Assembly: GCA_022841475.1 (NCBI GenBank)
Contig: JALHRJ010000003.1
Location: forward strand, 1 to 64,000
Source: Cyclobacteriaceae bacterium
Lineage (GTDB): Bacteria > Bacteroidota > Bacteroidia > Cytophagales > Cyclobacteriaceae
Length of the DNA stretch: 64,000 bases
Reading direction: 5' to 3'
In this document: in pieces, positions 2,487-19,322 of the stretch
Layout of the letters: each line of letters opens with the position of its first letter
How positions within the stretch are numbered: position 1 is the stretch's first letter
Notes under the pieces: generated by a model
Database searches by the model: none
What the model was told of the DNA's origin: nothing
The model's input: the letters and a program-made list of their open reading frames with translations, nothing else
Position numbers and translations under genes: made by a program

Positions 2487-3698
2487 ATGAACATCCACGA
2501 ATACCAGGCTAAAGATATTCTAAAGAAATTTGGAGTTGCTGTTCAACGAGGCATTGTTGCGGATACTCCCGACAAAGCCGTAGCGGCCGCCAAGCAGCTT
2601 CACGCTGAGACTGGCTCCAAATGGTTCGTGATTAAATCGCAGATCCATGCCGGTGGTCGTGGTAAAGGGACGGTGAAAGAAACAGGCTCGAAGGGCGTAG
2701 TGCTTGCTAAAAGTGCGGACGAAGTATATGAAAAATCAAAGGCCATATTAGGTGGAACTCTCGTTACCATTCAAACCGGGGCAGCGGGAAAGAAGGTTAA
2801 CAAAGTGCTTATCGCAGAGGATGTTTATTATCCCGGAGAAAATGAACCAAAAGAATACTACATGAGTATCCTACTCGACCGGGCCACCAGCAAGCCCGTG
2901 ATCATGGCCTCAACGGAAGGCGGGATGAACATTGAAGAAGTCGCTGCCACGCATCCTGAAAAGATTGTAAAAGAGTGGGTTGATCCCACAATTGGCTTAC
3001 AACCCTTTCAAGCTCGTAAAGTAGCTTTTGCTTTAGGGCTGGAAGGCAATGCCTTTAAGGAGATGATTAAGTTCATTAATTCATTATATGCCGCTTACAT
3101 TGGCCTTGATGCTTCGATGTTTGAAATCAATCCGGTGTTAAAAACTTCCGACAATAAAATTCTTGCGGTAGACGGAAAAGTCAATCTTGATGACAACGCG
3201 CTTTACCGGCACAAAGACCTGGAAGAATTAAGAGATATTTCGGAAGAAGATCCACTCGAGGTTGAGGCGGGCAAATCAGGGTTAAACTATGTGAAACTGG
3301 ATGGCAACGTAGGTTGTATGGTGAATGGTGCCGGCCTTGCGATGGCTACCATGGACATAATTAAAATCTCCGGAGGTGAGCCCGCTAATTTTCTGGATGT
3401 GGGTGGTGGCGCCAATGCCGAAACCGTGGAAGCTGGTTTTCGGATCATTCTAAAAGACCCGAACGTAAAGGCGATTCTTATCAATATATTCGGTGGTATC
3501 GTTCGTTGCGACCGGGTTGCCAGCGGTGTGGTGGAAGCTTATAAGAAAGTGGGCAATATTCCAGTACCAATTATTGTGCGCTTACAGGGCACCAATGCTG
3601 AAGAAGGGGCTAAAATCATTCAGGAATCAGGCTTAAAGGTGTTTTCTGCGATTCTTTTAAAGGATGCAGCTCAAAAAATAACGGAAGTGCTGGCTTAA
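2487..3698 (+). CDS. sucC: Succinyl-CoA synthetase (ADP-forming) beta subunit
   Basis: This subunit of the TCA-cycle enzyme interconverts succinyl-CoA and succinate with phosphorylation of ADP or GDP. The N-terminal ATP-grasp domain begins [16 protein letters not shown] and has the lysine/glycine loop HAGGRGKG near residue 52. The C-terminal half contains [16 protein letters not shown] and the conserved [13 protein letters not shown] segment of the CoA-ligase domain. An in-frame TTG exists at 2466, but the ATG at 2487 begins at the family's standard N-terminus, giving 403 residues. The alpha subunit sucD is not in the window. Confidence 0.96.
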
Positions 3699-3752
3699 GC
3701 TGGTTTTCATATTGGAAGAAAATGCATAAATTAGCTGCTTAAAGGGTATCCT

Positions 3753-4631
3753 ATGAGGAAATTGTTGGTAGTGTTCGCTTTGGTCCTACTCGCAGAGGTT
3801 TCTTTTGCGCAGAGTTTTTATGCGATTCGTAAAGACAGGGCAGTTATTCTTGTGGTGGGAACCGGAACATCAACTTATTTTGGAGAGTTAGCAAATCCTG
3901 GAGATTACATTGATGCGAAGCCAAACATTAATGCCGGCTTACAATTATATTTTACACCTCGCATAAGTGCCAGAGCCGAGTTAACTTGGTTTACCCTTGA
4001 AGGAACAGATTCAAAAGCTGATGACGCGAGCCGGGTTTCCAGAAATTTATCCTTCAAATCAAACAATCTGGAGCTTGGGTTTACCGGGGCCTTTAATTTG
4101 TTTCCTAATGGAAACCGATATTATCGGAGACCGTATTTCAATGCTTACGGTTTTGGTGGATTCGGATTACTCTATTACAATCCTACTACTGAGTATCAGG
4201 GTACAAAATATGCCCTTCAACCACTTAATACGGAAGGTGCGGACTACAGCAGAATCGGATTGGTTATTCCCTTTGGCTTAGGTGTAAGATTAAAAGCTGG
4301 ACCTAATTTTAACGTGGCCATAGAAGGTGGATATCGAAAAACCTTTACTGATTATCTTGATGATGTAAGCACTGTTCATTTAGGTCCCAGTGCATTTTCT
4401 GATCCTGTTGCTGCAGCCTTGTCTGATAGAAGGCCTGAACTTGGCAAGCTTGCTAAACCTACGGGAACACAACGCGGAAACCCTGATAATGACGATGGTT
4501 ATTTTCTACTTAATTTAAAAATTGAATATTATTTGCCTTGGGATTTGGGCGGTCAAAATAGTGGCCGAACCTACAGCAAGAAACGCAGTGCCAATTATCG
4601 ATACAATAGAAAGGGAGGAATACGGAGGTAA
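3753..4631 (+). CDS. Outer-membrane beta-barrel protein, DUF6089-like
   Basis: A clear signal peptide ends around VSFAQ (residue 20). The mature part is a run of alternating amphipathic strands typical of an 8-10 strand barrel, for example INAGLQLYFTPRISARAEL, LELGFTGAFNLFP and YFNAYGFGGFGLLYY. The GTSTYFGEL opening and this strand pattern resemble the DUF6089 family of Bacteroidota outer-membrane proteins, whose function is unknown. The tail is strongly basic and tyrosine-rich (YSKKRSANYRYNRKGGIRR). The gene follows sucC by 54 bases on the same strand, and no functional link is evident. Confidence 0.75.
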   Translation: MRKLLVVFALVLLAEVSFAQSFYAIRKDRAVILVVGTGTSTYFGELANPGDYIDAKPNINAGLQLYFTPRISARAELTWFTLEGTDSKADDASRVSRNLSFKSNNLELGFTGAFNLFPNGNRYYRRPYFNAYGFGGFGLLYYNPTTEYQGTKYALQPLNTEGADYSRIGLVIPFGLGVRLKAGPNFNVAIEGGYRKTFTDYLDDVSTVHLGPSAFSDPVAAALSDRRPELGKLAKPTGTQRGNPDNDDGYFLLNLKIEYYLPWDLGGQNSGRTYSKKRSANYRYNRKGGIRR

Positions 4632-4709
4632 TTCTAAAAATACGCAACTGGAGTAGGCAATTGTCAATGAAGAATGGGTATTAGACTCTGGAAGTGCTTG
4701 ACAGTTGGA

Positions 4710-4855: not shown

Positions 4856-5320
4856 CTACTTCAATGGTAAATACTCAAATGGAATGGCTGCGGCCTGGGC
4901 AAGGTTGCGAGCAGGTAGAATAGTTTTTTTTAAGTGGGTGGCAAGGTAGTCCGCTACGGATTGATCTTTTTCCGCATTATTGAACGTTATCACGATTTTG
5001 GACCTGCCTAATACATTTAACAACCCTTCAACGTATTCCTTTCCTTCCGCTTCGGTCTGAAGTAATATCCTGTTTGCCTCGGCCATGTGGCGGGTGGTGT
5101 CCATGCGTGAGTCAATCATAGTGCCGAGATAACTACCAACCAGTGGATATAAATTTTTACCGGCATGGATCTGAAACGAACGTGTTTCGCGAATGGTAAT
5201 ATTATTAACATGATACACCGGATCACTCAAAGTGGCTTTGGGTAAAATGATTTGCTGCACACTATCTCCGTGGCTGATTACTTCAATGTCTTTCAGGTTG
5301 AGGTAGGCGGTAATGGTCAT
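4856..5320 (-). CDS. DUF4230-like protein, short
   Basis: This 154-residue protein resembles the middle and end of DUF4230 proteins. A beta-rich part (MTITAYLNLKDIEVISHGDS, then QQIILPKATLSDP) is followed by a helical part (EANRILLQTEAEGKEYVEGLL) and a hydrophobic strand (SKIVITFN). Family members usually begin with a membrane anchor, which is absent here. A TGA stop lies two codons upstream in frame, so the protein cannot extend. It may be truncated. The ATG overlaps the stop of the upstream gene (ATGA, 5317-5320), indicating coupled translation. Assignment to the family is tentative. Confidence 0.5.
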   Translation of the reverse strand: MTITAYLNLKDIEVISHGDSVQQIILPKATLSDPVYHVNNITIRETRSFQIHAGKNLYPLVGSYLGTMIDSRMDTTRHMAEANRILLQTEAEGKEYVEGLLNVLGRSKIVITFNNAEKDQSVADYLATHLKKTILPARNLAQAAAIPFEYLPLK

Positions 5321-5613
5321 TCCTCAACCTTTGTAAGTTGTTCCCTAGATATAGGAATTTTCTTGTTTTCCTTGGTAGTGGATTCCCAATTAAACAGGGT
5401 CAGGGACTCCTCAGGGAATAGATTTGTTCGGTGACCGCTACCAGTTTCATACCATTTACATTCTATCAATGGCCTTTCCATTTTAAACGATGTGTGAATT
5501 TTAATAACGATCATCAGAGACTCACTATTTCTGAGATGTACACAGTCATGAAGTTTGAACTTACTTTTTGGCCTACGTAACATGCGCTTAATATTTCCCA
5601 ACCAGTTTATCAT
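5317..5613 (-). CDS. Small YodC/DUF2158-like protein
   Basis: The central part (KFKLHDCVHLRNSESLMIV, then PLIECKWYETGSGH, then LFPEESLTLFNW) follows the pattern of the DUF2158/YodC family of small beta-barrel proteins: a VxL start, a conserved C-x-W, and a final FxEEsL. The function of the family is unknown. The N-terminal 18 residues are basic and the C-terminal 15 are charged. It is co-translated with the next gene through an ATGA overlap. A gap of 73 bases separates it from the HD-domain gene upstream, so it may be a read-through continuation of the large signalling operon. Confidence 0.5.
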   Translation of the reverse strand: MINWLGNIKRMLRRPKSKFKLHDCVHLRNSESLMIVIKIHTSFKMERPLIECKWYETGSGHRTNLFPEESLTLFNWESTTKENKKIPISREQLTKVEE

Positions 5614-5686: not shown

Positions 5687-6325
5687 CTATTGTGAACGTA
5701 TCAATTTTTTATTCTTACCTAATGCAGGTTTGAGTTTATGAATCTTACGCTTTAATAATAAAATATTTTTTTCTTTACCACTGGCTAATAATGCTCTTGC
5801 ACTAGAAGTATGGTATTGATGTTTGGTTAAAAAAGTAAGAGAACTTCGCATCCAGGAAAGAGGGGATTTTACCCGATGATGAATAAGTCCAAATTCTCTA
5901 CGCAGGAGCTCATTTCGGTTAAAAAAGTCTTTCGTTCCAAAATGAAAAAAGTCAGCATCACACAAAATCTGCTCAAGTAAGTTTTTAGGGCTTTGCGGTA
6001 AGTGGGTGGCAAGAATACATTTCTTAACACGATTAATTAACTGTGCAGATACACCCAATGAACGAAGATATTTTTGAGCCTTCTGCGCACCGCTGAGTTC
6101 ATGGGTTCCGGGGTCTTCAAAATAACCACTGTCATGAAACCATGCAGCAACCAGTAATACAATGCGATCTTCATCACTGAGATGGTAACTACGACTTAGC
6201 ATTTTTACAGCTTTGACAACATCCTGTGTATGATGTTCGTCATGATAAACAAAGTGTGAATGCTTATGTAATTTGAAAATTGAATAAACATAGGCTCTTA
6301 CTTTTTTAAGAATGTCAGCGTCCAT
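5687..6325 (-). CDS. HD-domain metal-dependent phosphohydrolase
   Basis: The protein has a complete HD signature: H in YHDEHHTQDVV (near residue 30), the paired HD in AAWFHDSGYFEDP (near 67), H in KKCILATHLPQ and D in LCDADFFHFG. Such domains bind divalent metal and hydrolyse phosphoesters, including nucleotides. The substrate cannot be read from the sequence. It is the last gene of a seven-gene minus-strand run that also encodes an adenylate cyclase and a cyclic-nucleotide sensor, so a role in removing a nucleotide signal is an attractive guess but unproven. The C-terminus is rich in lysine. Confidence 0.7.
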   Translation of the reverse strand: MDADILKKVRAYVYSIFKLHKHSHFVYHDEHHTQDVVKAVKMLSRSYHLSDEDRIVLLVAAWFHDSGYFEDPGTHELSGAQKAQKYLRSLGVSAQLINRVKKCILATHLPQSPKNLLEQILCDADFFHFGTKDFFNRNELLRREFGLIHHRVKSPLSWMRSSLTFLTKHQYHTSSARALLASGKEKNILLLKRKIHKLKPALGKNKKLIRSQ

Positions 6326-6346
6326 AATCTTGAAATAGTGTTTCCT

Positions 6347-7978
6347 CTATAAATTCCTGATTATCATGCCCCGATCAAGTTGCTTTTCCAATTTCTCTTT
6401 TAGGAGTGATTTGAAGAGTTCAATTTGATCTTTGTTACTTGAATAATAAATATTCCTGGTGCCCTGATCTGTTTCTTCCCAAAACTCTTCCGTGTGCTCC
6501 ATTATGAAATTGCACTCAAGATCAATCAGTCCCCTGATATCAGGTACATGTAACGTAGATAATTCAAGGAGGATTGATTCAATAAGATGATCAGAGTATT
6601 CATCCTCCGACTTGTCCAGGTAGAAAAGGCATAGGCCCATTTGAATAGATCTCATCCCATGATGTTCAATACCCCGGGCGGCTACCTGTTGGTATCCAAT
6701 ATAGAGACCCGTGAACATTTTCAAGATGGACTCCTGTAATGCTTGCGAAGATTGTTGCTCATATAGTGCAATAAGAAATTTTTTCAATTGCCAGGATATG
6801 ATTTCGATAAGAAAGACAAACAAGGGTGAGGAATGCCGTAGCTTAATAAGCTCTTTCGCATAAAAGTAGAAATATTGACAGCATTGTAGTACTCTTTGTT
6901 CTTCCCTTTTATCAATAAACAAGTGAACGAGCATACTGTAATGATAGAGGGAGTTATACACATTTCTTACCTCTTTAGTCTTTAATCCATCGTTAATTCC
7001 GTACCGTATCATGGTGTTGAAATGAAAAATGGTGCTGGTCAAAACAGGTTGATCGTTCAACTTACAAGCCACCTTTCCTATCTCAAATAATTCGCTCCCA
7101 CAAAGAGAAGCTAATTCATAATGGCTATCCTTTATGAGGAGTAAATAGGTCGTATCCAACACCCGTAGTACCTTATGTTCATAAAACGTTTGCTCTCTTT
7201 CTATTTGCTCATATTTTTCACTTAAGGTGATGAACGATATATCCTTTTTATGAAAATCAGTAAGTTTAAAGTAAGAACCCGGTAAAGACTTCTTAATTGA
7301 AAGATGAAGCCTTACAGATGCACCAAGCCTTTGTATAATATAACCCTTAGGTTCTTTAAACTGGATATATTGTAAAAGGTCATGCAATTGATTTGTAGTT
7401 TCAAAAAGAATGATATGGTTCTTAAGGATTTGTGTTTGGCGGAGACGCTTCGAAGATAACAGCGCCTTAATATTTTCGTTGAAAATCCGTTCAATTACAG
7501 TTTCATTTTTTGTGCTTTTCAGGATGTAAAACGTATACGGAATTGCCAGAAAAATAAAGAAAGGAAGTAACATGTAGCAGTTAATTACAATCAGATTGGC
7601 AATAAAAAAACTTGATTCCGAGGACACCAATTGTAAAAAAACATTCTCTAAGGTAGAGAGCAGAATAAGCCAAATATATAATCTTGCCAGCGGGTCTGCG
7701 ACAAACATATCAATAAGCTTAGGCGTATTTTCTGATGCAATGGAAACGACAATAATCAATGTGCCAAAGACTAGTGCCAGCAACGACAGCCAGGCTTCTG
7801 GAGCATAGTCTATTAAATTAATAAGGTCAGTAGAAAGTATTCCAATACTACTCAAGAGATTAACAGGGAGCCCAGCAGCGATCCACACCAGAATACCTTT
7901 GGTGATAACAGCCATCAATAAAATGAAACCACTGTTTCTAACTTCCACCTTTTCTTTAATAAGATTATAGGTAATCAT
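6347..7978 (-). CDS. Membrane protein of unknown function, four predicted TM helices
   Basis: I do not recognise this protein with confidence. The first 155 residues contain about four membrane segments (roughly 15-45, 52-82, 98-120 and 123-152). The segment LALVFGTLIIVVSIASENTP recalls DUF2254-type membrane proteins. The remaining 390 residues are soluble, mostly helical, and rich in Leu, Ile, His and Gln with no obvious catalytic motif. The gene starts 7 bases downstream of the cNMP-CPBP protease gene and ends 21 bases before the HD gene, so it belongs to the same transcript. Being next to an intramembrane protease it could be a substrate or partner, but nothing in the sequence proves this. 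Confidence 0.6.
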   Translation of the reverse strand: MITYNLIKEKVEVRNSGFILLMAVITKGILVWIAAGLPVNLLSSIGILSTDLINLIDYAPEAWLSLLALVFGTLIIVVSIASENTPKLIDMFVADPLARLYIWLILLSTLENVFLQLVSSESSFFIANLIVINCYMLLPFFIFLAIPYTFYILKSTKNETVIERIFNENIKALLSSKRLRQTQILKNHIILFETTNQLHDLLQYIQFKEPKGYIIQRLGASVRLHLSIKKSLPGSYFKLTDFHKKDISFITLSEKYEQIEREQTFYEHKVLRVLDTTYLLLIKDSHYELASLCGSELFEIGKVACKLNDQPVLTSTIFHFNTMIRYGINDGLKTKEVRNVYNSLYHYSMLVHLFIDKREEQRVLQCCQYFYFYAKELIKLRHSSPLFVFLIEIISWQLKKFLIALYEQQSSQALQESILKMFTGLYIGYQQVAARGIEHHGMRSIQMGLCLFYLDKSEDEYSDHLIESILLELSTLHVPDIRGLIDLECNFIMEHTEEFWEETDQGTRNIYYSSNKDQIELFKSLLKEKLEKQLDRGMIIRNL

Positions 7979-7985
7979 GCTTTTG

Positions 7986-9191
7986 TCAAAATAAACTTTC
8001 CAGATTCAAAAAAAACAATGCGGTCCATCCAATGAGCAAATGAGAAACACTAACTCCGATTAGATTTTCGTGACGAGAATAAAGCCAACCCCAAAACAGA
8101 CCGGGCACAAAGACAATCACGCCCAACAATCCACCCAGTAAATGAACATGCGTTGCTGAGAAAAGTGCATTGGAAATAATGATGGCTCTTATGGTAACAT
8201 TCTTTCCACTAAAAAAATGTTGTAAACTTCCCTGGAGAACACCTCGCGCAATGAATTCCTGAATCGGTGAATGCAAACCATAAATAATGAAATTGAAGGC
8301 TAGAAACCGTTGCTGAGTCGGATTAAAATCAAACACAGGCAAGTGTTGGTATTTTGGTACATACTCAACCAGTATCCACTTAGTAAGTACCATTACACCC
8401 ACGATTGCCATAGACCATACCATGGTTTCCTTCATAGATGGTTTCCAGTTTTTTGTTGTTAATCCAAAAAAACTTAATGGAAGCTTACTTTGCCGGATCA
8501 TCAAGACCAATACAACACAAAAAACTACAATGATCATTGCACTGATAATCGATGCCCGCTGGGCATCCATCGATAAATTAATTATCGTATGAATGGCCAG
8601 GTTATAGACGCAAAGAAGTCCAATGACATACGAAAAAAAAAGGTTGGCTCTGGCATTCAATAATGAATTCTTTATATCAATTTTGAGTGCAGTTACTTCG
8701 TTCGCACTCGTCATTTTCAAGCGCTCAGCAACGTACCCGAGCATATTCTTCATAAGAGTGCCCCACGCCCGAGGAAAAGCTTCTTCTAGTTTTGAGAGAT
8801 TTTCATGGTCAAGGCTTAGCAACAGAGACTTTGACTTACTCCGGATGGTAGCGGAGCGGGGCCCTCTCTTCAGAAAACTTAATTCGCCAATGGCATCGCC
8901 CTTCTTCAAATGAGCAATTGTGAAATCATGCTTCATCCCCCAGACCAGTGCATCCGTATCTGTTTGTTCGGCTTTCTTAGTTACTTCCAGGTCTCCGCTA
9001 AGTACCAGATAAAGATTCAGCGAGGTATCTATTCCTTCTTGAAGGAGTATTTCTTCCCCTCTCAATATCACCTCTGTAAAGAATGGAATAATAGCTCTTA
9101 AATCGGCATCACCAATGCCATTGAAAATGGGGTGGTGCCTGATCAGTTCCCAGGGTGAAAGGATAATCAATTTCGTAGAGCTATTGTTCAT
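7986..9191 (-). CDS. Cyclic-nucleotide-binding domain fused to CPBP intramembrane protease
   Basis: Residues about 15-155 form a cNMP-binding domain. The phosphate-binding cassette GDAIGELSFLKRGPRSATI keeps the Glu and Arg used to hold cyclic nucleotide. After a linker come six to eight TM helices ending in a CPBP (Abi) module: motif 1 QEFIARGVLQ near residue 302, motif 2 FSATHVH near 338, and a third histidine in VSVSHLLIGW near 387. Motif 1 has Gln-Glu where most CPBP proteases have Glu-Glu, so activity is likely but not certain. The architecture suggests a protease gated by cAMP or cGMP, and an adenylate cyclase is encoded three genes upstream in the same operon. Confidence 0.82.
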   Translation of the reverse strand: MNNSSTKLIILSPWELIRHHPIFNGIGDADLRAIIPFFTEVILRGEEILLQEGIDTSLNLYLVLSGDLEVTKKAEQTDTDALVWGMKHDFTIAHLKKGDAIGELSFLKRGPRSATIRSKSKSLLLSLDHENLSKLEEAFPRAWGTLMKNMLGYVAERLKMTSANEVTALKIDIKNSLLNARANLFFSYVIGLLCVYNLAIHTIINLSMDAQRASIISAMIIVVFCVVLVLMIRQSKLPLSFFGLTTKNWKPSMKETMVWSMAIVGVMVLTKWILVEYVPKYQHLPVFDFNPTQQRFLAFNFIIYGLHSPIQEFIARGVLQGSLQHFFSGKNVTIRAIIISNALFSATHVHLLGGLLGVIVFVPGLFWGWLYSRHENLIGVSVSHLLIGWTALFFLNLESLF

Positions 9192-9225
9192 CTAACTCAA
9201 GTGTTTAAGCCGAGGTGCCAAACGT

Positions 9226-10605
9226 CTAATCCAAATTGATAAGTTTAAATTCTACGGAACCCGCTATATCATCCGGTTTCAATTTTTCGCTTTTTGAAGT
9301 CATCACGATATCCTGACCCAAACCCCGGTAACTTAATCTCCTTTTTTCAATACCGTTTTTTACTAGGTAATCGACCACGTTACTGCCTCTTATATTCGAC
9401 AATGACAAGCTTTCGTTTCTGGTGGCATGTTCATTCGAATGCGTACTCACCAGCACAATCATGTTTTTATACTTCTTTAGATAACCTATAATGTATTGAA
9501 GATCTGCAATAGCCTTCGTATTTATCTCGGGGAGATTATTGCTAAACACACCATAAACAACCTGGGTCTGCCCGATTTCCGCAGGATTCTCCGTGTCCTT
9601 TAAATCATCTATTGAAACTTGCACATTTTTAAACAGGCGTGTCATCTCAACACGATATATATCAGAATTTTCAGGTGTCAGCCCTCTTGAATAATACGCA
9701 TACCTACTATCAGGATTAAAGTTGAACGACAAATCATCATACGGTGAGTTTATACCCGGTCCTAAATTTACCGGCTTAGACCAATTGGTCCACGTATTGT
9801 CTAACCGTTTCGACATGAAAATATCCAAACCACCATAGCCGTTGTGACCATCGGATGAGAAGTACAGCGTTCGTCCATCATACGACAACCAGGGAGAAGT
9901 TTCATTTCCAAATGTATTGATCAACGGCCCCATGTTAACGCTCTCTACTCCTGAATAGGGGTATTTTGCATCCGGATCTCTCAGGGATACATACAAATCA
10001 AGTTTGCCTTTCGAGTCTGCTTTCTCCTGAGCAATAATAAGTGCATTCCGATCATGTGTTAAATCGTAACTAGCCCGTTCGGAAAGGTTATAGTCTAAGG
10101 CGACATTGACAGGTTGGGGAAATGACCATAGGTCACCCACACGAATTGAAATCGACACACCAGACTTCATTTTTCCGTTCTTCCCATAAATGTTACCGAG
10201 CAGCAGCGTATCACTTTTGCTACCTATGCCACTGATAAAATTCGGACCTTTGTTATTCAGAGGAGCCCCTGCGTTAACGGCCTGTGTCCACGTTTGGGTA
10301 ACTTCATCAAATTCACTATACCATATATCCTCATCGCGTGCACCGCCCGTATTTTCAGGATGACCCTGCCTACTGAAATACAATCGCTTGTTGTCTTTCG
10401 TGGGCATAGGACCCAACTCTCTATACGGTGTGTTGACCAGAAAATTGAGTGGCTCACCCTCTATGGAAGTATCAATATTTTCTGCCACATTAACTTGATT
10501 ACCTACCACAGGCCCTGTCTGTTGAGCGCTCACCACTATAATACTCGTAACGACCAGCATTACTACGATGAGAATGTTTCGAATTGAACATACTGATTTA
10601 TTCAT
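9226..10605 (-). CDS. Exported PD40-repeat protein with OmpA-like C-terminal domain
   Basis: An N-terminal signal segment (IRNILIVVMLVVTSIIVVSAQ) is followed by WD40-like PD40 blades with the usual motifs DNKRLYFSRQGH, DIWYSEFD, GRTLYFSSDGHNGYGGLDIF and SRYAYYSRG. Residues about 350-459 resemble an OmpA peptidoglycan-binding domain (LSLSNIRGSNVVDYLVKNGI, then RLSYRGLGQ). The usual GHTD is replaced by STHSN, so the diaminopimelate-binding Asp is missing while the Arg is kept. It probably resides in the periplasm or outer membrane. In Bacteroidota such proteins accompany envelope sensing and secretion systems. It is the fourth gene of the signalling operon and could link that operon to the cell wall. 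Confidence 0.78.
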   Translation of the reverse strand: MNKSVCSIRNILIVVMLVVTSIIVVSAQQTGPVVGNQVNVAENIDTSIEGEPLNFLVNTPYRELGPMPTKDNKRLYFSRQGHPENTGGARDEDIWYSEFDEVTQTWTQAVNAGAPLNNKGPNFISGIGSKSDTLLLGNIYGKNGKMKSGVSISIRVGDLWSFPQPVNVALDYNLSERASYDLTHDRNALIIAQEKADSKGKLDLYVSLRDPDAKYPYSGVESVNMGPLINTFGNETSPWLSYDGRTLYFSSDGHNGYGGLDIFMSKRLDNTWTNWSKPVNLGPGINSPYDDLSFNFNPDSRYAYYSRGLTPENSDIYRVEMTRLFKNVQVSIDDLKDTENPAEIGQTQVVYGVFSNNLPEINTKAIADLQYIIGYLKKYKNMIVLVSTHSNEHATRNESLSLSNIRGSNVVDYLVKNGIEKRRLSYRGLGQDIVMTSKSEKLKPDDIAGSVEFKLINLD

Positions 10606-10617
10606 ACTATTATTGGT

Positions 10618-11007
10618 TTACGTGTTAATCCATATTTTGGCATCCTCCGGATTATTAAAATACTCAATCATCATCACCTCATCGGGTACTGGTAAAAACG
10701 CAAGTTTTTGAGAAACCTGCGTGTTTGTGATGATGGCATATTTTAATACCCCGCTATTCATAATCTGAGGAATGTAAATTTGACTGATCCAATTCTGGAG
10801 TTCTCTGGTTTCATTGAAAACATAATTTCGTGTATCAACCACAATTTTTTTAATCTTTAACTTTAATACAAAAATCAGAATCTGACTAATTTCAAATTTA
10901 ACTTGAGTCTCTACCATTTTTTTGGACTCTTGAAGCCAGACAGCCCATAGGGAATGACTTTCTTTTACATACAGTAATTCTGAATAGGGGCTTGCGTATA
11001 GTTGCAT
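10618..11007 (-). CDS. Small STAS/SpoIIAA-like protein
   Basis: The preferred start (ATG at 11007) gives about 129 residues beginning MQLYASPYSELLYVKESHSL. A longer reading frame would overlap the cyclase gene by 62 bases and is less likely. The pattern (strand, conserved AVW, helix, hydrophobic strand KIKKIVVDTRNYVFNETRE, amphipathic helix, strand) fits a STAS-like fold seen in short Bacteroidota proteins next to regulators. No phosphorylatable Ser is obvious. It sits between the response-regulator cyclase and the OmpA-like gene with gaps of 22 and 12 bases. A regulatory role is inferred from context only. Confidence 0.5.
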   Translation of the reverse strand: MQLYASPYSELLYVKESHSLWAVWLQESKKMVETQVKFEISQILIFVLKLKIKKIVVDTRNYVFNETRELQNWISQIYIPQIMNSGVLKYAIITNTQVSQKLAFLPVPDEVMMIEYFNNPEDAKIWINT

Positions 11008-11029
11008 AGTCAATCTGATTATTTTTATT

Positions 11030-12205
11030 TCACGAATTAAACATAAGTTTTGCTTGAGCTGCAGCCCCACTTCCGACTTCATGTTCGACAAAGTACATGT
11101 CTATCTTACCCATATTTTTAACTTCAATTTTGCCTCGTGCGCTGCATTTAAATTTGTCTTTCACAAGCTGATAGGTGATACCGGAAATATTGACTTTCCC
11201 CGGCTCCCCTGCCGCCTCGAGGCGGGCTGCGATGTTGACTGTTGAACCCCAAATGTCATAAGTGAATTTACTCTTGCCGATTACACCTGCAATCACAGGA
11301 CCCGTGTGAATCCCGATCCGTAATTCCCAGGGCGGCTTACCCGCTTTTTTATTTTCCTCTTTTGCATGATTAATAAACTGCAACATCTCCAGCCCTGCAT
11401 TTACGGCATCGACTGGGTTGGATCCATTCGGAGTAGGCACTCCACCCGCTGCCATATACCCGTCTCCCATTGTTTTAATTTTTTCCATGTTATTACGCTC
11501 AATGATCGCGTCAAGCTCAACAAAGAGGTAACTGAGTTCTCCAACAAGTTCTGCTGGACTTAGGCCATTACTTAAAACTGTAAATCCCGCAAGGTCGGCA
11601 AACAGCACTGATACTATTGGAATGTGCAAGGGCGTTACGGATCCCTTTAACTTTAATTCCTGCGCAACCACCGGAGGAAGTACGTTCAGTAAAAGAGCTT
11701 CCGATTTATTCCTTTCTGATTCTAATTCTTTTTTTTGTCTTCTTATTTCTTCGCTTGAGTTCTTTAACATGCCCGAGCTTATTTCCATTTGTTGCACCAC
11801 CGTCTCCAATTGTTCGCGGGCATCAGCCAATTCCAATTGGGTTTTAATGCGCATCATTAACTCATCAGCATCAAAAGGCTTATTTAGAAAATCACTTGCT
11901 CCAAGCTGAAACCCTTCCACTGTTATTTTTTTATCCATGTTAGAGGTCAAAAAAATGACTGGAATCTTCTTGGTACGCGAGTCTTTCTTAAGCTGCTTAC
12001 ATACTTCAAAGCCGTTCATCTCCGGCATTTCAATATCCAATAAGATCAGGTCAGGGTGGCTGTTCTGTTTCGCAATTTCCAGGGCCTTCGCTCCAGAAGT
12101 AGCCACCTTCTTTTTGAAGTCTACCAACAAGCCACTCAAAATCGCAATATTCTCAGGTGCGTCATCGACAATAAGAATTGTTTTATCACTCATGTTTGTT
12201 TCCAT
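11030..12205 (-). CDS. Response regulator fused to class III adenylate cyclase
   Basis: Residues 8-125 are a receiver domain with D14/D15, the phosphoacceptor D57 in LILLDIEMPEMNGF and Lys in FLNKPF. A coiled segment (about 130-180) leads into a class III cyclase domain. Its first metal Asp is in VLFADLAGF, followed by the Lys region EKIKTMGDGYM and the segment TYDIWGSTVNIAARLEAAG. Lys and Asp at the base-selecting positions point to adenylate rather than guanylate cyclase. It should therefore make cAMP when phosphorylated by the kinase encoded 19 bases upstream. The downstream operon holds a cyclic-nucleotide-binding protease, a plausible receiver of that signal. Confidence 0.88.
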   Translation of the reverse strand: METNMSDKTILIVDDAPENIAILSGLLVDFKKKVATSGAKALEIAKQNSHPDLILLDIEMPEMNGFEVCKQLKKDSRTKKIPVIFLTSNMDKKITVEGFQLGASDFLNKPFDADELMMRIKTQLELADAREQLETVVQQMEISSGMLKNSSEEIRRQKKELESERNKSEALLLNVLPPVVAQELKLKGSVTPLHIPIVSVLFADLAGFTVLSNGLSPAELVGELSYLFVELDAIIERNNMEKIKTMGDGYMAAGGVPTPNGSNPVDAVNAGLEMLQFINHAKEENKKAGKPPWELRIGIHTGPVIAGVIGKSKFTYDIWGSTVNIAARLEAAGEPGKVNISGITYQLVKDKFKCSARGKIEVKNMGKIDMYFVEHEVGSGAAAQAKLMFNS

Positions 12206-12224
12206 TTCCTCCCCCCGGTTTAGT

Positions 12225-15200
12225 TTATACTTGTAATTGTGATTTTAGTTTCTCCAAAAGAGTTAAAGCTTCTTCAAACTCATAGTTGTCCAATACCACT
12301 TTTAACTTTTCGATTTCCAACTCTAGTCCCGAAATCATTCCGATTTCGTCCAGCAATTGGATGGCATCGGGGTTATGATCAAGCAGAGATTTTTCTAAAT
12401 CAATTAGCTGCAACTTGATCCTATCCAGATTTAATTCCATTGTTTTTGGTACCGCTTTGGATAACTGCCTACCAATGGATTGTGTTATGGCATTTAATTC
12501 GTTCTTCATAGAATCAACACCGGATAAGACATAGGTTGTATCGAGTATGTTTTGTTCTATACTGATACACATTTCGTGTAGTTGCAACATGCCAAGGCTG
12601 CCGGAAAGACCTTTCATAGTATGGATCATCCTGCGCGCAGTAATCAGATCACTTTCGTTATAGGCTGTCAGAAAATCCTCCGCAAAACTTTCGTTGTTAT
12701 CCCAGAACTTGAGAAGCATATCATAAAAAAGTTTTCCATTCCCCCCCAGATGCGAAAGCCCATCGTCTAGATTCACTCCATAGATTTCGGGAATCTCCAC
12801 TTTCTCTTTTTCAAGGACCGCGGTGCTGGCAATGCTATCGCTACCTAACCATCTTACGATCGTTTCCAGCATTTTGTTTGGATTGATGGGCTTGGCGATA
12901 AAGTCATTCATCCCAATTTCAATGCACTCTTCTTCAATTTTATTAAACGCATCGGCTGTCATGGCAATAATAGGCAGCTTCTCATAGGCCCCAAGTTTGC
13001 GTATTTCCATCGTGGCCATACGACCACCCATTACCGGCATTTGCAGATCCATTAACACCAGGTTGAAGCGCGATGGTATACCCGAGTTCCTTACAAGTTC
13101 CAACGCTTCTTGTCCGTTCCCCGCAATCTCCACGGTGAATCCAAATCCCTCGAGTAATTCACGTGCTACTTGTTGATTAATTTCATTGTCCTCCACCAAT
13201 AATAAATGACCGCGAAATTTTTCTTCAGTTTCTTTAATAACCCTCTGGCCCTGTTCCGCCTCAATACTTTCTTCATTTTCAAGTGCTTCGATAATAAGGT
13301 TGTACAGTCTTGAATATCGAATAGGTTTGATTAAAATCCCGGAGAGGTCCAGCTCCTCTGCTTGTTCATACAAAACCTCATTTGCATAGCCAGCACTCAT
13401 CATGATAATCTTGATGTCATCAAATTGTTGGTCCTGTCTTATTAATTTTGCGGTTTCGATTCCATCCATCTCGTCCATTTTCCAATCCAGCAGAATGAGT
13501 TTGATTGGATTATGATGATAATTGTTCTTTAAATAATGGATAGCCTGGATACCCGAGCCGATTGCTGTTACCTTGAATGAAAGGGATTCCAAGGCCTCCT
13601 TCATGATCTTAAGTGCGGGTATACTGTCCTCCACTAACAGCACGTTTAATTTTCGAAGATCGATGGAAGGGACAGGAATTTTTCTTTGATGTTTTTGTTT
13701 CTTCAACCATAAATTAAAATAAAACCGGCTACCCTTTCCGGGCTTACTGTCAATCGACACGGTACCTTCCATCAATTCAACCAATCGTTTGATGATGGAG
13801 AGCCCAAGTCCCGTACCACCATATTTACGGGAAATGGTATCATCCGCCTGCGTAAAGGGTACAAACAACTTACTGACCTGTACCTCGTCCATCCCAATAC
13901 CGGTATCCGCCACTTCAAAATTTAAATGAATTTTGTCGATGGTTTCCTCTCTCACCGTCACCGTTACGACCACATCACCTTCATGAGTGAACTTGACCGC
14001 ATTGCTGCAGAGGTTTATTAAAATTTGTTCAAGACGTACCGGATCACCGATAAGATAGGTAGGTACGCGGCTGTCAATGCCAAAGGCAATTTCAAGTCCT
14101 TTGGCGTTGGCTTTATAGGTAATGACATTGCCAAGCCGTTGAAAGATTTCCTCCAGGTCGAAACTAACTTCTTCAAGAATTAATTTTCCTGCTTCAACTT
14201 TGGAAAAATCCAGGATATCGTTAATGATACCCAACAATGACTCACTGGATGACTGAATTTTATTGAGGTAATCTGCTTGTTTGGGTGTAAGCTCTGTCTT
14301 AAGCGCTAGGTGACTAAGACCTATCACCGCATTGAGCGGGGTACGAATTTCATGCGACATGTTCGCCAAAAACTGGCTCTTTGTTCGGTTGGCCAACTCA
14401 GCAGCAAGTTTGGCTTCTTCCAAAGTTTTATTAGTCGCGCTGAGCTTGGCCTCTGCCTCTTTTTGCTCTGTAATGTCGCGTGCAATTTTCGCTACGCCTG
14501 TTATGTTTCCATTTTTGTCTTTAATGGGGGAAACCGATAACGAAACAGGAATAGGACTTCCATCCTTTCGTACTCTGACGGTCTCATAATTTCGAATCAA
14601 TTTTCCACTCTTAACCTGATCGATGATGTATGATTCTTCATGAATACGATGTTTTGGAATCAGTAAAGAAATGTGTTTACCCGCTACTTCTTCAAATGAG
14701 TATCCAAATGTTCTTTCAGCTCCTTTATTCCAGGTGTTAATTATTCCATCCAATGACTTACTTAAGATGGCATCGTCAGAAGATGCTACCACGGCTGCCA
14801 ACTCATTGACCTTTCTTTCATCCATTAAGCGCTTCGTGATGTCAATTGAAATCACGGAAACACCAATGATGGCTTTGTCGTCAGCAAAAATCGGGTTGAA
14901 CCGGGTTTCATAAAACGCCTTCTCCGCGTCACCATACTCTTCAATGCTGATATGACTCTCGCCCGCCAAAGCGCGGTTCAGATTTAGTTTTAGCTTTTCT
15001 CTATCAGCATCATTGGTCATGTAATCCAGGATACTACTTCCAATCTCCACTTCCTGATTGTAGAGATAACGCATGGATTGCTTATGAATCGCATTAATAT
15101 TCAAATATTTATACTTTGAATCGATTGAAAAGAAATTGACGCCATCGAGACTCTCAATGCTGGATTGGAGGAGAAGTTGAGCGTTTCTTGCGAGTGTGGT

Positions 15201-16250
15201 CAATCGGACAAGCTCGGCTTCGTTTCTTTTTTGTGCTGTAATGTCAGTGGTTAATATCGTGACACCAAAGATCTCCTGTTGATCATTCCGCATGGGGTTA
15301 TAACGGGTCTCAAAACATACCCGCTCCACTAATCCATATTCCTCAATGGTTAAATGGTTTTGTCCGGCAATCGCTTTGTCAAAATTGACTTTCGCTTTGA
15401 GTTTATCTTCTGTAAGAGTAATGCAATCTAAGATGCTCTTGCCAATTTCAACATGTGTTCCATAAGCCTGAAAGGTAGCATTACTAAAAGACACATTGAA
15501 ATTCAAAATTCGATAGTTAACATCAATAGAAAAAATCATTATCTCCTTGAGACTTTCGAAACTCGCTTGGAGAAGGATTTTCGCTCTATGCGCAACATCC
15601 GCTTCTTCCTTCATCTTGGCTTGCGATATTTTGGCAGCCTTCAGACTTATATAATTCATTATAAAAAGTCCCATGAGTAACAAAGTAAAAAAGAGTACAG
15701 TCGCGAAATAAGTCTGATTAAAGGTGATAGTAGCTGTAGCATTCCGCTCTTGTCTTTCCTGCAGCAGCGTTTGCTCGTACTGCTGCATTTCGTTGACGAG
15801 GACCCGGATTTGATCCATCACTCTTTTTCGGTTCCAGGCCTGCCGCAAATTTTCCTCTATAGTTAACTTATCGTCATCGCTTTTAATGGCCTCATCTGTA
15901 AGACGAATCTTTTCGTCAATCAGTGGTTTGAGTTTAGTTACTGATTGCTGCTGCGGTGGACTATCCGCAATAAGTTTTTGGAGAATCTGAAAATGATAGT
16001 CTATCGAATCGCGATAGGCATAATACGGGGTGAGGAATTCTTTCTTATTAGTATTATCATAGCCACGCTGACTGGTTTCAATGTTCAACAAGGCATTGAA
16101 CAATTTTTCTGAAGTAAGTAGAACTTGACCTGAATGTAAAACCTGGCGATTGGAAGTAAGCTGATTTTGATTATTTGTATAGGTAAGCCAGCCCAACCAG
16201 GTTGATATGGATAAGATAAGAATGAAATGAAAGGTTGCTCTTGACAACAT
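12225..16250 (-). CDS. Hybrid sensor histidine kinase: CHASE3, PAS x3, HisKA, HATPase, REC x2, HPt
   Basis: This 1341-residue membrane sensor starts with TM helix 1 (residues 8-24), a CHASE3-like helical periplasmic domain (motif NIETSQRGYDNTNK) and TM helix 2 (about 182-203). Three PAS-type domains follow (about 225-345, 350-475 and 480-605). Next come a HisKA domain with MSHEIRTPLNAV, an HATPase with DTGIGMDEVQVSKLF and GGTGLGLSII, two receiver domains (LILLDWKMDEMDG and LVLMDLQMPVMGG) and a C-terminal HPt domain with MIHTMKGLSGSLGM. The full internal relay suggests multistep phosphotransfer, probably ending on the response-regulator cyclase encoded next. PAS domains 1 and 2 resemble each other (ETRYNPMR and ETRFNPIF), implying internal duplication. 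Confidence 0.93.
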   Translation of the reverse strand: MLSRATFHFILILSISTWLGWLTYTNNQNQLTSNRQVLHSGQVLLTSEKLFNALLNIETSQRGYDNTNKKEFLTPYYAYRDSIDYHFQILQKLIADSPPQQQSVTKLKPLIDEKIRLTDEAIKSDDDKLTIEENLRQAWNRKRVMDQIRVLVNEMQQYEQTLLQERQERNATATITFNQTYFATVLFFTLLLMGLFIMNYISLKAAKISQAKMKEEADVAHRAKILLQASFESLKEIMIFSIDVNYRILNFNVSFSNATFQAYGTHVEIGKSILDCITLTEDKLKAKVNFDKAIAGQNHLTIEEYGLVERVCFETRYNPMRNDQQEIFGVTILTTDITAQKRNEAELVRLTTLARNAQLLLQSSIESLDGVNFFSIDSKYKYLNINAIHKQSMRYLYNQEVEIGSSILDYMTNDADREKLKLNLNRALAGESHISIEEYGDAEKAFYETRFNPIFADDKAIIGVSVISIDITKRLMDERKVNELAAVVASSDDAILSKSLDGIINTWNKGAERTFGYSFEEVAGKHISLLIPKHRIHEESYIIDQVKSGKLIRNYETVRVRKDGSPIPVSLSVSPIKDKNGNITGVAKIARDITEQKEAEAKLSATNKTLEEAKLAAELANRTKSQFLANMSHEIRTPLNAVIGLSHLALKTELTPKQADYLNKIQSSSESLLGIINDILDFSKVEAGKLILEEVSFDLEEIFQRLGNVITYKANAKGLEIAFGIDSRVPTYLIGDPVRLEQILINLCSNAVKFTHEGDVVVTVTVREETIDKIHLNFEVADTGIGMDEVQVSKLFVPFTQADDTISRKYGGTGLGLSIIKRLVELMEGTVSIDSKPGKGSRFYFNLWLKKQKHQRKIPVPSIDLRKLNVLLVEDSIPALKIMKEALESLSFKVTAIGSGIQAIHYLKNNYHHNPIKLILLDWKMDEMDGIETAKLIRQDQQFDDIKIIMMSAGYANEVLYEQAEELDLSGILIKPIRYSRLYNLIIEALENEESIEAEQGQRVIKETEEKFRGHLLLVEDNEINQQVARELLEGFGFTVEIAGNGQEALELVRNSGIPSRFNLVLMDLQMPVMGGRMATMEIRKLGAYEKLPIIAMTADAFNKIEEECIEIGMNDFIAKPINPNKMLETIVRWLGSDSIASTAVLEKEKVEIPEIYGVNLDDGLSHLGGNGKLFYDMLLKFWDNNESFAEDFLTAYNESDLITARRMIHTMKGLSGSLGMLQLHEMCISIEQNILDTTYVLSGVDSMKNELNAITQSIGRQLSKAVPKTMELNLDRIKLQLIDLEKSLLDHNPDAIQLLDEIGMISGLELEIEKLKVVLDNYEFEEALTLLEKLKSQLQV

Positions 16251-16739
16251 AGCTCATTTTCATAGTTGAATTGATATCGAAAAAAATTTTATACTCATTT
16301 TAAAAATAATATTTTATGATATATATCATGTTTTGTAAATAGTAATTTTAATTACATTGTAATGTTTATAAAAAGAAAGATAAATTTGTATGACAATTCC
16401 TTATATAAGCTAAGGGAATCCTTAGATGAATTTTCCTTTTTGCTTAGTCATGTTTAATTACTCCACCATCATTTACTAAGTGCATTGATGTTGTTTGAAG
16501 TAAGAATAAAAACAGCCTATCGATAACCCGATTGGGTGCAATACTTAAAAATATATGGCCTTATCAAGAAAGCATAGCAAAGATGAAGGGTAAGGTGTGG
16601 TTAGGAAAGGTCTGAATGTCGCCAGTTTTGGTTCAAATTACCCTTCAACTATTAAGCTATGTTAAAGCATCAAATGATTCTCAAATGAACACACTAAAAG
16701 GGTGGCCATTGTGCTAATTGCTAAGCAAATGTGAAGGAT
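16251..16739. other. AT-rich non-coding region upstream of the kinase operon
   Basis: No gene is visible. The part next to the kinase start is very AT-rich, with runs of A and T and palindromic stretches such as atgatatatatcat near 16316. It should hold the promoter of the seven-gene operon, but I could not find a good TAnnTTTG box. From about 16575 on the sequence is homologous to 17967-18157, the equivalent part of the tandem duplication. Confidence 0.6.
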
Positions 16740-16868
16740 GAAGCTGTCTCAAAAGTCTAATAATATTGAATTGTCATTCCGGCCCTGAGCCGGAATCCCG
16801 TCATACGTGTATAAAACGGGATCGCGGGTCATTGCCCGCGATGACTGGAGGACTTTTGAGACAGCCTC
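16740..16868. repeat. Palindromic repeat element, copy 2
   Basis: The terminal inverted repeats are gaagctgtctcaaaagtc and gacttttgagacagcctc. Inside are a hairpin from attccggccctgagccggaat and another around gatcgcgggtcattgcccgc, with cccgtcatacgtgtataaaa between them. The layout matches the element at 1632-1766, and 18158-18286 is an identical copy. A 65-codon open frame across it is a by-product of the palindrome. Confidence 0.8.
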
Positions 16869-17004
16869 TAACAATTTTAGTCTGTGTGCATTCGGGTAAC
16901 GTAAATGAGCGCTCGATTTTTTTCATCCAAGGTCAACCCATAATAATCATAACAGAAGGCTGATGTTTAGGCAGCATTGAAAAGCGTTTCTTGTAAGGCC
17001 CTCG

Positions 17005-17907
17005 TTAGAAGTCAACCCTGTTCTTGAATTTCTTCGGAGAAATTCCAGTAATGCGCTTGAAATATTTTCCAAAAACCGACTGGTCGCTAAAGTTCAATAA
17101 ACTGGCAACTTGAGATATGGTATGTTCCGGCTTTTCAAGTAATAACTTGCTTTCAAGGATTATATAGTGATCGATAATCTGTCTAGCGGTTTTGCCATTT
17201 ATCTCTTTTACGATTTTCGTTAGATATTTTGGGCTCACATTCAGCGCACCGGCATAAAATTGAACTGAATGTTGCTCTCGAAAATTATTTGATACCAGGT
17301 GAGAAAAGCGAATGACAAGTTCTTCTTTATGCGTAACCTGCCGAATGAGTGGGGGGGAGTACTTACGTCTCTGTGCAGCAATTTCATACAGCAAAGTCAG
17401 GAAAACATGATTGACCTGCTCAACACCAAACAGTCTGTCCGCCTGTTTGCAGCGTTCGAAGAGGTTACGTATATTTCTTTCAATAACACTTGCATCAGCA
17501 GGGTCAAGATTCCAGACGGGTTTGAAGTGGGAGCTAAAATAACTAAGAAGCTCATTTGCTCGCATTGTCAAGCCGGTCTGGTTCAGAAATTTCACGGTAA
17601 AATGGATCATCATTACCTGCGCATCTTGCGAAGCACCAAGCATCTGCCTTATCACATTAGGTGCCATTATCAAAAGCATTCCTTTCTTAATTGTATAAGG
17701 AATGAGGTCAAGTGAGATATTCGCAGCTCCACGCCTACAGAGGATGATGGAATAGTGGTCCGTTCGAAAATGCTTACCATAGTCAAAATCGACAGCATTG
17801 AATAACTCAGTAACAGCCAGTTCACCACAAGTTACTGCAACCCGCGACTTCCTGTACGAAAGCACTTCAGCAGAAGTGAGAACCGGTACCGAGGATACTT
17901 TGACCAT
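17005..17907 (-). CDS. AraC-family transcriptional regulator, copy 1
   Basis: The last 100 residues are an AraC-type double helix-turn-helix (QFYAGALNVSPKYLTKIVKE, then HTISQVASLLNFSDQSVFGK and YFKRITGISPKKFKN). The N-terminal 190 residues look like a cupin-type sensing domain (YSIILCRRGAANISLDLIPY, then LLIMAPNVIRQMLG). The paralogue encoded at 18423-19322 is identical over the last 60 or so residues but diverges in the N-terminal domain, mainly around residues 28-65. The two may therefore bind the same sites yet respond to different signals. The target is unknown; the neighbouring kinase operon or polysaccharide locus is a candidate. Confidence 0.88.
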   Translation of the reverse strand: MVKVSSVPVLTSAEVLSYRKSRVAVTCGELAVTELFNAVDFDYGKHFRTDHYSIILCRRGAANISLDLIPYTIKKGMLLIMAPNVIRQMLGASQDAQVMMIHFTVKFLNQTGLTMRANELLSYFSSHFKPVWNLDPADASVIERNIRNLFERCKQADRLFGVEQVNHVFLTLLYEIAAQRRKYSPPLIRQVTHKEELVIRFSHLVSNNFREQHSVQFYAGALNVSPKYLTKIVKEINGKTARQIIDHYIILESKLLLEKPEHTISQVASLLNFSDQSVFGKYFKRITGISPKKFKNRVDF

Positions 17908-18422: not shown

Positions 18423-19322
18423 TTAGAAGTCAACCCTGTTCTTGAATTTCTTCGGAGAAATTCCAGTAATGCGCTTGAAATATTTTCCAAAAACCGACTG
18501 GTCGCTAAAGTTCAATAAACTGGCAACTTGAGATATGGTATGTTCCGGCTTTTCAAGTAATAACTTGCTTTCAAGGATTATATAGTGATCGATAATCTGT
18601 CCAGCGGTTTTGCCATTTATCTCTTTTACGATTTTCGTTAGATATTTTGGGGTCACACTCAGCGCATCGGCATAAAATTGAACTGTATGTTGTTCTCTAA
18701 AATTATTCGAGACCAAGTGAGAAAAGCGAATGACAAGTTCTTCTTTACGCGTAACCTGCCGAATAAGTGGTGGTGAGTACTTCTGTCTCTGCGCAGCAAT
18801 TTCATACAGCAAAGTCAGGAAAACAAGAGTGACCTGCTCAACACCAAACAGTCTGTCCTTCTGTTTGCAGCGTTCGAAGAGGTCACGCATAATTCTTTCA
18901 ATAACACTTGCATCAGCAGGGTCAAGATCCCAGACGGGTTTGGATTGGGAGCTAAAATAACTAAGAATCTCATTTGCTCGCGTTGGCAAGCCGAGCTGGT
19001 TCAGAAAATGTACAGTAAAATGGATGATCATAACCTGCGCATCTTGCGAAGTACCAAGCATCAGTCTTATCACATTAGGTGCCATTATTACAAGCACTCC
19101 TTTCTTAAGTGTATAAGCGATGAGGTCAAGTGAGATATCCGCAGATCCTCGCGTACAGAACATGACGGCATAGTGGTCCGCTCTAAAATGCTTACCAGAA
19201 TAGTCAAAATCAGCAAACTGGTATGCTTCAGTAACGGACAGTTCACCACAAGTTACTGTAACCCGCGACTTCCTGTACGAAAGCACTTCAGCAGAAGTGA
19301 GAACCGGTACCGAGAATGGCAT
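18423..19322 (-). CDS. AraC-family transcriptional regulator, copy 2
   Basis: This is the tandem paralogue of the regulator at 17005-17907, one residue shorter. The DNA-binding C-terminus is the same except for a few changes (QFYADALSVTPKYL; GQII instead of RQII). The N-terminal sensing part differs more, for example EAYQFADFDYSGKHFRADHY. The start ATG lies a few bases from the end of the degraded kinase copy upstream. As the upstream kinase remnant is probably dead, this gene may use a promoter inside that remnant. Confidence 0.87.
   Translation of the reverse strand: MPFSVPVLTSAEVLSYRKSRVTVTCGELSVTEAYQFADFDYSGKHFRADHYAVMFCTRGSADISLDLIAYTLKKGVLVIMAPNVIRLMLGTSQDAQVMIIHFTVHFLNQLGLPTRANEILSYFSSQSKPVWDLDPADASVIERIMRDLFERCKQKDRLFGVEQVTLVFLTLLYEIAAQRQKYSPPLIRQVTRKEELVIRFSHLVSNNFREQHTVQFYADALSVTPKYLTKIVKEINGKTAGQIIDHYIILESKLLLEKPEHTISQVASLLNFSDQSVFGKYFKRITGISPKKFKNRVDF

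Follow-up and report, generated by a model that had tools for sequence, protein, structure and literature searches.

A window of 64,000 nucleotides from a Cyclobacteriaceae bacterium (assembly GCA_022841475.1, contig JALHRJ010000003.1, positions 1 to 64,000) carries seven consecutive minus-strand genes, among them those for a hybrid sensor kinase, a receiver-class III adenylyl cyclase, a cyclic nucleotide-binding (cNMP) domain fused to a CPBP membrane bundle, a membrane protein that we call MEM, and an HD-domain phosphohydrolase. We propose, with about even confidence, that these genes form a modular, kinase-driven cyclic AMP (cAMP) cassette whose cNMP-CPBP fusion is a cAMP-gated, probably non-proteolytic membrane effector.

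The cNMP-CPBP fusion

The fusion protein is predicted to consist of a cNMP-binding domain, one long helix (about residues 140-206) and a CPBP (Rce1-like) membrane bundle. The cNMP domain has the CNB fold and retains the Glu and Arg of the phosphate-binding cassette. As a prediction, this supports the role of local cAMP reader that a sequence-only reading of this DNA had given it. Residues T161-S162 in helix C may resemble those of E. coli CRP. In the predicted model the membrane bundle has the CPBP fold, and its fit to Rce1 is about as good as that to SpdC, a non-proteolytic scaffold.

The sequence-only reading had cAMP open a working CPBP protease. However, the first Glu of the EExxxR motif is replaced by Gln (QE312xxxR) in all 32 aligned cNMP-CPBP proteins, and HxxxG replaces HxxxN in the same 32. 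That first Glu reportedly bridges the catalytic water with a His (PMC11980579). EExxxR is kept in 35 of 36 "CPBP-only" relatives, meaning that the match is restricted to that part (in 34 of the 35 the frame from stop to stop does not exceed 312 amino acids; that of L076 has 495). The single relative without the motif (L040, a CPBP-only frame of 246 amino acids) has QE and an altered Arg spacing. L018, likewise with QE and HxxxG, was dropped before counting as a near-duplicate of L017; L041 was left out of A6/A7, and L111 and L121 out of A5.

With the described catalytic first Glu altered in every family member examined, we doubt the protease step; the fusion probably does not cut. As cutting is the weak step, we favor the reading in which cAMP gates a membrane scaffold whose partner is MEM or the kinase.

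The genome from which the window was taken has five CPBP matches: three with EE, the window's QE, and one with Val-Glu (L187, contig C24). L187 is thus another CPBP protein that lacks the first Glu of EExxxR, and loss of this residue is not unique to the family of the window protein.

Relatives of the cNMP-CPBP fusion were found, judging by record titles, in four phyla besides the window's own, mostly in metagenome bins. The neighborhoods of these loci outside the order revealed no recurrent partner, although simple ORF (open reading frame) calling failed for many GC-rich loci and partners may be missed. Ten chosen neighbors comprised CpdA, an MBL protein, a His-tRNA-synthetase-like protein, radical SAM, UvrA-like, UPF0047 and DUF6962 proteins, a weak PHP match and two proteins without a family.

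The kinase and the receiver-cyclase

The kinase includes a full phosphorelay set according to Pfam: CHASE3, PAS, HisKA, HATPase, two receivers and Hpt. The cyclase scores 168.1 bits for Guanylate_cyc and 97.7 for Response_reg (curated cut-offs 21.9 and 30.2, respectively). In its receiver the acidic pair, the phospho-acceptor, the Thr and the Lys are all intact, and alignment to adenylyl cyclase 9 demonstrated that the cyclase domain retains both metal Asp residues (D204, D248), K244/D317, N324 and R328. K244 and D317 are of the adenine type, and D57 is the receiver Asp. A sequence comparison with PDB entries ranked adenylyl cyclases 9, 8 and 5 highest. The intact residues predict cAMP as the product. 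Of the earlier claim that a kinase signal raises cAMP, the path from kinase to receiver-cyclase to cAMP stands as a prediction, while the output might change in either direction.

Compact receiver-cyclases were found in at least 5 of 285 family genomes, the window's own included, and also in G039, a genome of the same genus; the count is a lower bound because at most six candidates were scored per genome. Residues D14, D15, D57, T87, K109, D204, K244, D248, D317 and N324 are present in all six of these proteins and R328 in five. In all six loci, MEM or a cNMP protein is encoded within four genes of the cyclase. In four of the six loci MEM belongs to the same cluster, and the cyclase precedes it immediately in G265, by two genes in G193, by three in G039 and by four in the window. 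The G265 order is kinase, receiver, H-NOX, kinase, receiver-cyclase, MEM and MBL-fold hydrolase. The remaining two clusters include other cNMP proteins: TPR-kinase, receiver-cyclase and two cNMP-NTE-patatin genes in G136, and kinase genes, receiver-cyclase, a hemerythrin-type gene and a cNMP-CRP regulator in G304.

The H-NOX gene of G265 (L103) sits inside the kinase/receiver-cyclase/MEM cluster that ends in the MBL-fold hydrolase, which suggests a gas-sensing input. In G136 (L238), the two cNMP-NTE_Ploop-patatin genes adjoin the TPR-kinase/receiver-cyclase pair in opposite orientations.

Pairing of the HD family with cyclases

The HD protein is related to the HD half found in HD-PycTM proteins, and the metal ligands H28, H32, H64, D65, D123 and D125 are present in 21 of 21 sequences. 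A search of 331 genomes of the order, with the window's own counted, found relatives in 219. Many of the matches listed lie in frames of about 390-470 amino acids, and the two such frames that were scanned (L165 and L270) both encode HD-PycTM.

In a set of 20 HD loci, selected chiefly for a gene of stand-alone length, two include a class III cyclase by our one-sequence search, in both cases as a direct neighbor. Sensor-cyclase, HD and cNMP-SpoIIE follow each other in G077, as do kinase, receiver, receiver-cyclase and HD in G583. In L163 a diverged Guanylate_cyc match lies three genes from the HD gene; our one-sequence cyclase search is conservative and missed it, so cyclases may also be missed in control loci. 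When 24 cyclase-centered loci were examined instead, an HD gene was found within three genes in nine (7 of 22 after excluding two loci chosen for the pairing), and none was found among 427 ORFs of 40 other loci that served as a control. Cyclase, PycTM and HD genes stand in a row in L275 (G182) and L279 (G254), an HD-PycTM fusion adjoins a cyclase in L270 (G189), and L268 has cyclase, HD and HEAT-cNMP in a row.

The HD enzyme may clear the signal, as the sequence-only reading had suggested; the conserved metal ligands and the repeated pairing support this as a prediction. Since the domains and residues are intact and the HD family often lies beside class III cyclases, we consider it a good prediction that the kinase drives cAMP synthesis for a local reader and that the HD protein may remove the signal.

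The gene sets of L275, L279 and L270 are Pycsar-like. In four genomes (L261, L262 on contig C4 of the window's own genome, L243 and L267) a large HD gene and a class III cyclase gene are oriented toward each other; where scanned, the HD protein is TPR-HD (L243, L262) and the cyclase TPR-cyclase (L243). In L267, a Glutaminase-STAS-cNMP fusion (2879-4675) is encoded next to the HD/cyclase pair.

MEM and conservation of the gene set

Hydropathy analysis of MEM indicates several membrane segments. DUF2254 is matched weakly by 14 of 20 family members (best 8e-6), and the window MEM, at 10.2 bits, lies below the curated cut-off of 28.8. DUF2254 itself was found in 0 of 10 genomes, no relative of MEM was found in PDB by sequence, and MEM was absent from all 75 candidate stretches of viral contigs. 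Passages from one of the two papers found under the DUF2254 name treat its fold and not a function.

Besides G039, MEM relatives were found among the other genomes of the family (3 of 294) and of the order (17 of 340; the weak hits in G236, G241 and G511 were not counted). These 20 genomes, some of them incomplete, were searched whole with the cNMP-CPBP model and gave no match beyond the cNMP part. MEM is thus no dedicated substrate and is not tied to the CPBP protein, which goes against the earlier claim that the protease cuts its membrane neighbor. In 3 of the 20 loci (G265, G193 and G472) MEM has a class III cyclase no more than two genes away, and no further one was found among the 251 ORFs scanned. 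Two of these genomes, G265 and G193, have a receiver-cyclase cluster with MEM but no full-length cNMP-CPBP match.

Only one of 115 other genomes searched, G039, encodes a full-length cNMP-CPBP protein (about 55-56% identical). Its locus reads kinase, Hpt protein, receiver-cyclase (63%), PD40-OmpA (54%), cNMP-CPBP and MEM (43%), so that five of the seven genes keep their order (43-64% identity) and the remaining genes of the locus differ. The match to the G039 kinase begins at residue 197, and the ORF of that kinase lacks the CHASE3 part at its start, so its sensor differs from that of the window kinase. An HD relative is encoded elsewhere in the G039 genome. Order-wide, the cNMP-CPBP model matched in 151 of 341 genomes; among the matches listed, and the window's aside, these cover the cNMP part only or the CPBP part only.

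Proposed mechanism and its alternatives

In the proposed cassette, the membrane sensor kinase would pass phosphate through its own receivers and Hpt to the receiver of the cyclase, as the intact domains and the adjacency of the genes suggest. Phosphorylation would alter cyclase output in one direction or the other, with cAMP as the product predicted from the residues. On the predicted model, cAMP bound by the cNMP domain would shift the long helix that leads to the membrane bundle. The CPBP bundle could then serve as a scaffold that changes a partner, most likely MEM, or else the kinase, in the manner of SpdC and Abx1. The HD enzyme would hydrolyze cAMP or otherwise reset the signal, given its repeated pairing with class III cyclases, and the PD40-OmpA protein might couple the response to the cell envelope. 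The cassette would be modular, as related receiver-cyclases and cyclase-HD pairs carry other cNMP outputs.

A wider claim we hold tentatively: cNMP-CPBP proteins, each a rewired and probably non-cutting CPBP bundle that a cNMP domain switches, could be an unrecognized, cross-phylum class of cAMP receptor, occupying in this order the effector slot of a general module of class III cyclase, effector and HD enzyme in which cNMP-CPBP with MEM, PycTM, cNMP-patatin, cNMP-SpoIIE and HEAT-cNMP are swapped. MEM would then be PycTM-like and the HD protein a dedicated cAMP phosphodiesterase.

Most of the cAMP receptors known from bacteria are transcription factors. If the proposal is true, cAMP also controls a protease-derived membrane scaffold in four phyla and the window's own, the HD family is a candidate cAMP-removing enzyme for these bacteria, and the DUF2254-like protein gains a functional setting.

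A number of points weigh against the proposed cassette. Every functional step is read from gene order, residues and predicted fold, any contact between the CPBP bundle and MEM is conjectural, and the Foldseek E-values for the bundle are above 0.05. As the window and G039 seeded the MEM search, only the 3 of 20 other loci independently support the cyclase link. Four of the nine HD/cyclase pairs (L243, L261, L262 and L267) are not independent, since by size and orientation they look like one orthologous convergent pair. The sole sister locus, that of G039, has neither the HD nor the STAS-like gene, and the full seven-gene set is not conserved; for the co-occurrence that the sequence-only reading named as a check, the result is five families in the same order in one of 115 other relatives. 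Further such points favor particular alternatives and are given with them.

A working protease, opened by cAMP and cutting a membrane or secreted substrate, perhaps MEM, draws on the CPBP fold, on the Rce1-like match above the Pfam cut-off and on the invariance in all 32 proteins of E312 (the second Glu), R316, F344 and H348 of FxxxH, and the last His, H384, because of which some chemistry may remain. Nor does the Gly at the last motif say much, as EE-type relatives vary at the HxxxN position (Asp in 31, Thr in 3 and Asn in 0 of 34 readable); HxxxN is therefore not strict and the argument from HxxxG is weak. Against the protease stand the invariant Gln at a position where 35 of 36 CPBP-only relatives keep Glu, and, for MEM as the substrate, the 20 genomes that have MEM without a full-length cNMP-CPBP match. 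We regard this explanation as rather unlikely.

It is less probable still that the genes belong to two or more unrelated units that happen to be adjacent, the kinase and cyclase feeding a general cAMP pool to which cNMP-CPBP, MEM and HD are unlinked. The genome does have seven class III cyclase matches, no class III cyclase was detected in the examined flanks of 30 cNMP-CPBP loci outside the order, and 17 of the 20 other MEM loci are without a detected cyclase. However, the gene order is kept in G039 amid differing genes, the genes are separated by 7-34 bases without terminator-like sites, and MEM or a cNMP protein accompanies all six compact receiver-cyclases.

A Pycsar-like antiphage system, whose infection-made cyclase signal would open a growth-stopping membrane effector with MEM in the place of PycTM, is suggested by the cyclase-PycTM-HD rows, the HD-PycTM gene beside a cyclase and PADLOC model matches (PycTIR, 1e-9, for the CPBP fusion; PycC, 2e-15, for the cyclase), but is very improbable: the PADLOC matches reflect shared domains, a phosphorelay kinase precedes the cyclase, eight of nine locus proteins (the kinase left out) gave no other convincing defense match, none of nine proteins scanned from the locus has a PycTM or TIR Pfam match, and the cyclase has adenine-type K244/D317, whereas for PycC other residues, which differ between clades, are described (PMC11224242).

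Relation to known systems

Each part of the preferred cAMP cassette belongs to a known kind. Neither SpdC nor Abx1 is known to have a cNMP domain. Abx1 keeps the catalytic motifs. SpdC (LyrA), of the SagB-SpdC complex, is likewise a CPBP protein acting as a non-proteolytic scaffold, but its partner is described in published passages as a cell-wall hydrolase, unlike here (PMC10581084). Abx1 (Abi/CPBP), which controls the CovS kinase, is similarly a CPBP protein that acts on a signaling partner, and its protease residues are described, in passages of the source, as dispensable (PMC3578759). With the Rce1/CPBP glutamic intramembrane proteases and the myxosortase MrtX the window protein shares the fold, FxxxH, the second Glu, the Arg and the last His, whereas the first Glu of EExxxR and the Asn of HxxxN are replaced and an N-terminal cNMP domain is added. 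The cyclase agrees with receiver-class III adenylyl cyclases in domain order and active-site residues and differs in its clustering with cNMP-CPBP and a DUF2254-like protein. Relatives of the operon group a cyclase, a membrane effector and a related HD domain as do Pycsar (PycC with PycTM/PycTIR) and HD-PycTM, while the operon itself has adenine-type cyclase residues and no PycTM/TIR domain was found in it. MEM resembles DUF2254 membrane proteins through the weak profile matches of its family, the window protein being far below the cut-off.

The literature searched contained no description of a cNMP-CPBP protein with a rewired center or of its kinase-cyclase-HD cassette. We call the gene set undescribed on the basis of that search alone; the combination was not found described.

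Organization of the locus

The order of the seven genes, all on the minus strand, and their close spacing were confirmed from ORF coordinates (Table 1). The gaps are 19, 22, 12, 34, 7 and 21 bases, taking the ATG at 11007 as the start of the STAS-like gene. Five of the seven earlier gene labels are supported by Pfam matches above curated cut-offs and that of the membrane protein by hydropathy only; "STAS-like" was not confirmed.

Table 1 Features of the seven-gene locus and its flanks
Feature	Coordinates	Strand	Evidence
Hybrid sensor histidine kinase, 1341 aa	12225..16250	-	Pfam CHASE3, PAS domains, HisKA, HATPase, two receivers, Hpt
Receiver-class III adenylyl cyclase, 391 aa	11030..12205	-	Pfam REC + Guanylate_cyc (2e-49)
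Small protein, 129 aa, paralogue-rich family; "STAS-like" unconfirmed	10618..11007	-	DUF4286 E 0.0076 only, below cut-off
PD40 beta-propeller + OmpA domain protein, 459 aa	9226..10605	-	Pfam PD40 + OmpA
cNMP-CPBP fusion, 401 aa	7986..9191	-	Pfam cNMP_binding (4e-11) + Rce1-like (2e-11)
MEM, DUF2254-like membrane protein with large C-terminal part, 543 aa	6347..7978	-	No accepted Pfam family
HD-domain phosphohydrolase, 212 aa	5687..6325	-	Pfam HD (1e-6)
Small protein dn2, possibly eighth gene	5317..5613	-	73 bases after HD gene
Small protein dn1	4856..5320	-	Overlaps dn2 by 4 bases; no accepted Pfam family
Intergenic region, 754 bases, expected promoter site	16251..17004		No strict Bacteroidota-type promoter match within
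Seven-gene run	5687..16250	-

None of the terminator-like sites lies inside the six gaps (18 such sites in the window, 10.7 expected), and we infer that the seven genes form one transcript; dn2 and dn1 may belong to the same unit. Sigma-70-like sites number 37 in the window (34.4 expected), and the scan for the Bacteroidota promoter consensus gave a single match, at 262-292. Upstream of the kinase gene lies a terminator-like site with eight pairs (16842-16821). The repeat search revealed nothing that could be tied to the operon.

The PD40-OmpA protein has a hydrophobic N-terminus and is probably exported; a partial NCBIfam match to CHU_0125/PorE is far below the cut-off. The family of the 129-amino-acid protein was found in 18 of 96 genomes searched, own included, with up to 12 hits per genome. 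Local alignment of dn2 with the N-terminal part of the Hpt protein of the G039 locus scored 55 (maximum of 47 in 500 shuffles), a resemblance that is suggestive only.

Two closely similar AraC-type regulator genes lie in tandem upstream of the operon (17005-17907 and 18423-19322). An 18-base inverted repeat (16740-16757 / 16851-16868; 94% complementary, 93 bases apart) flanks the hairpin at 16842-16821 and is possibly a mobile-element remnant. At 37335-63843 the window has an extended series of minus-strand ORFs that overlap slightly or are set apart by small gaps.
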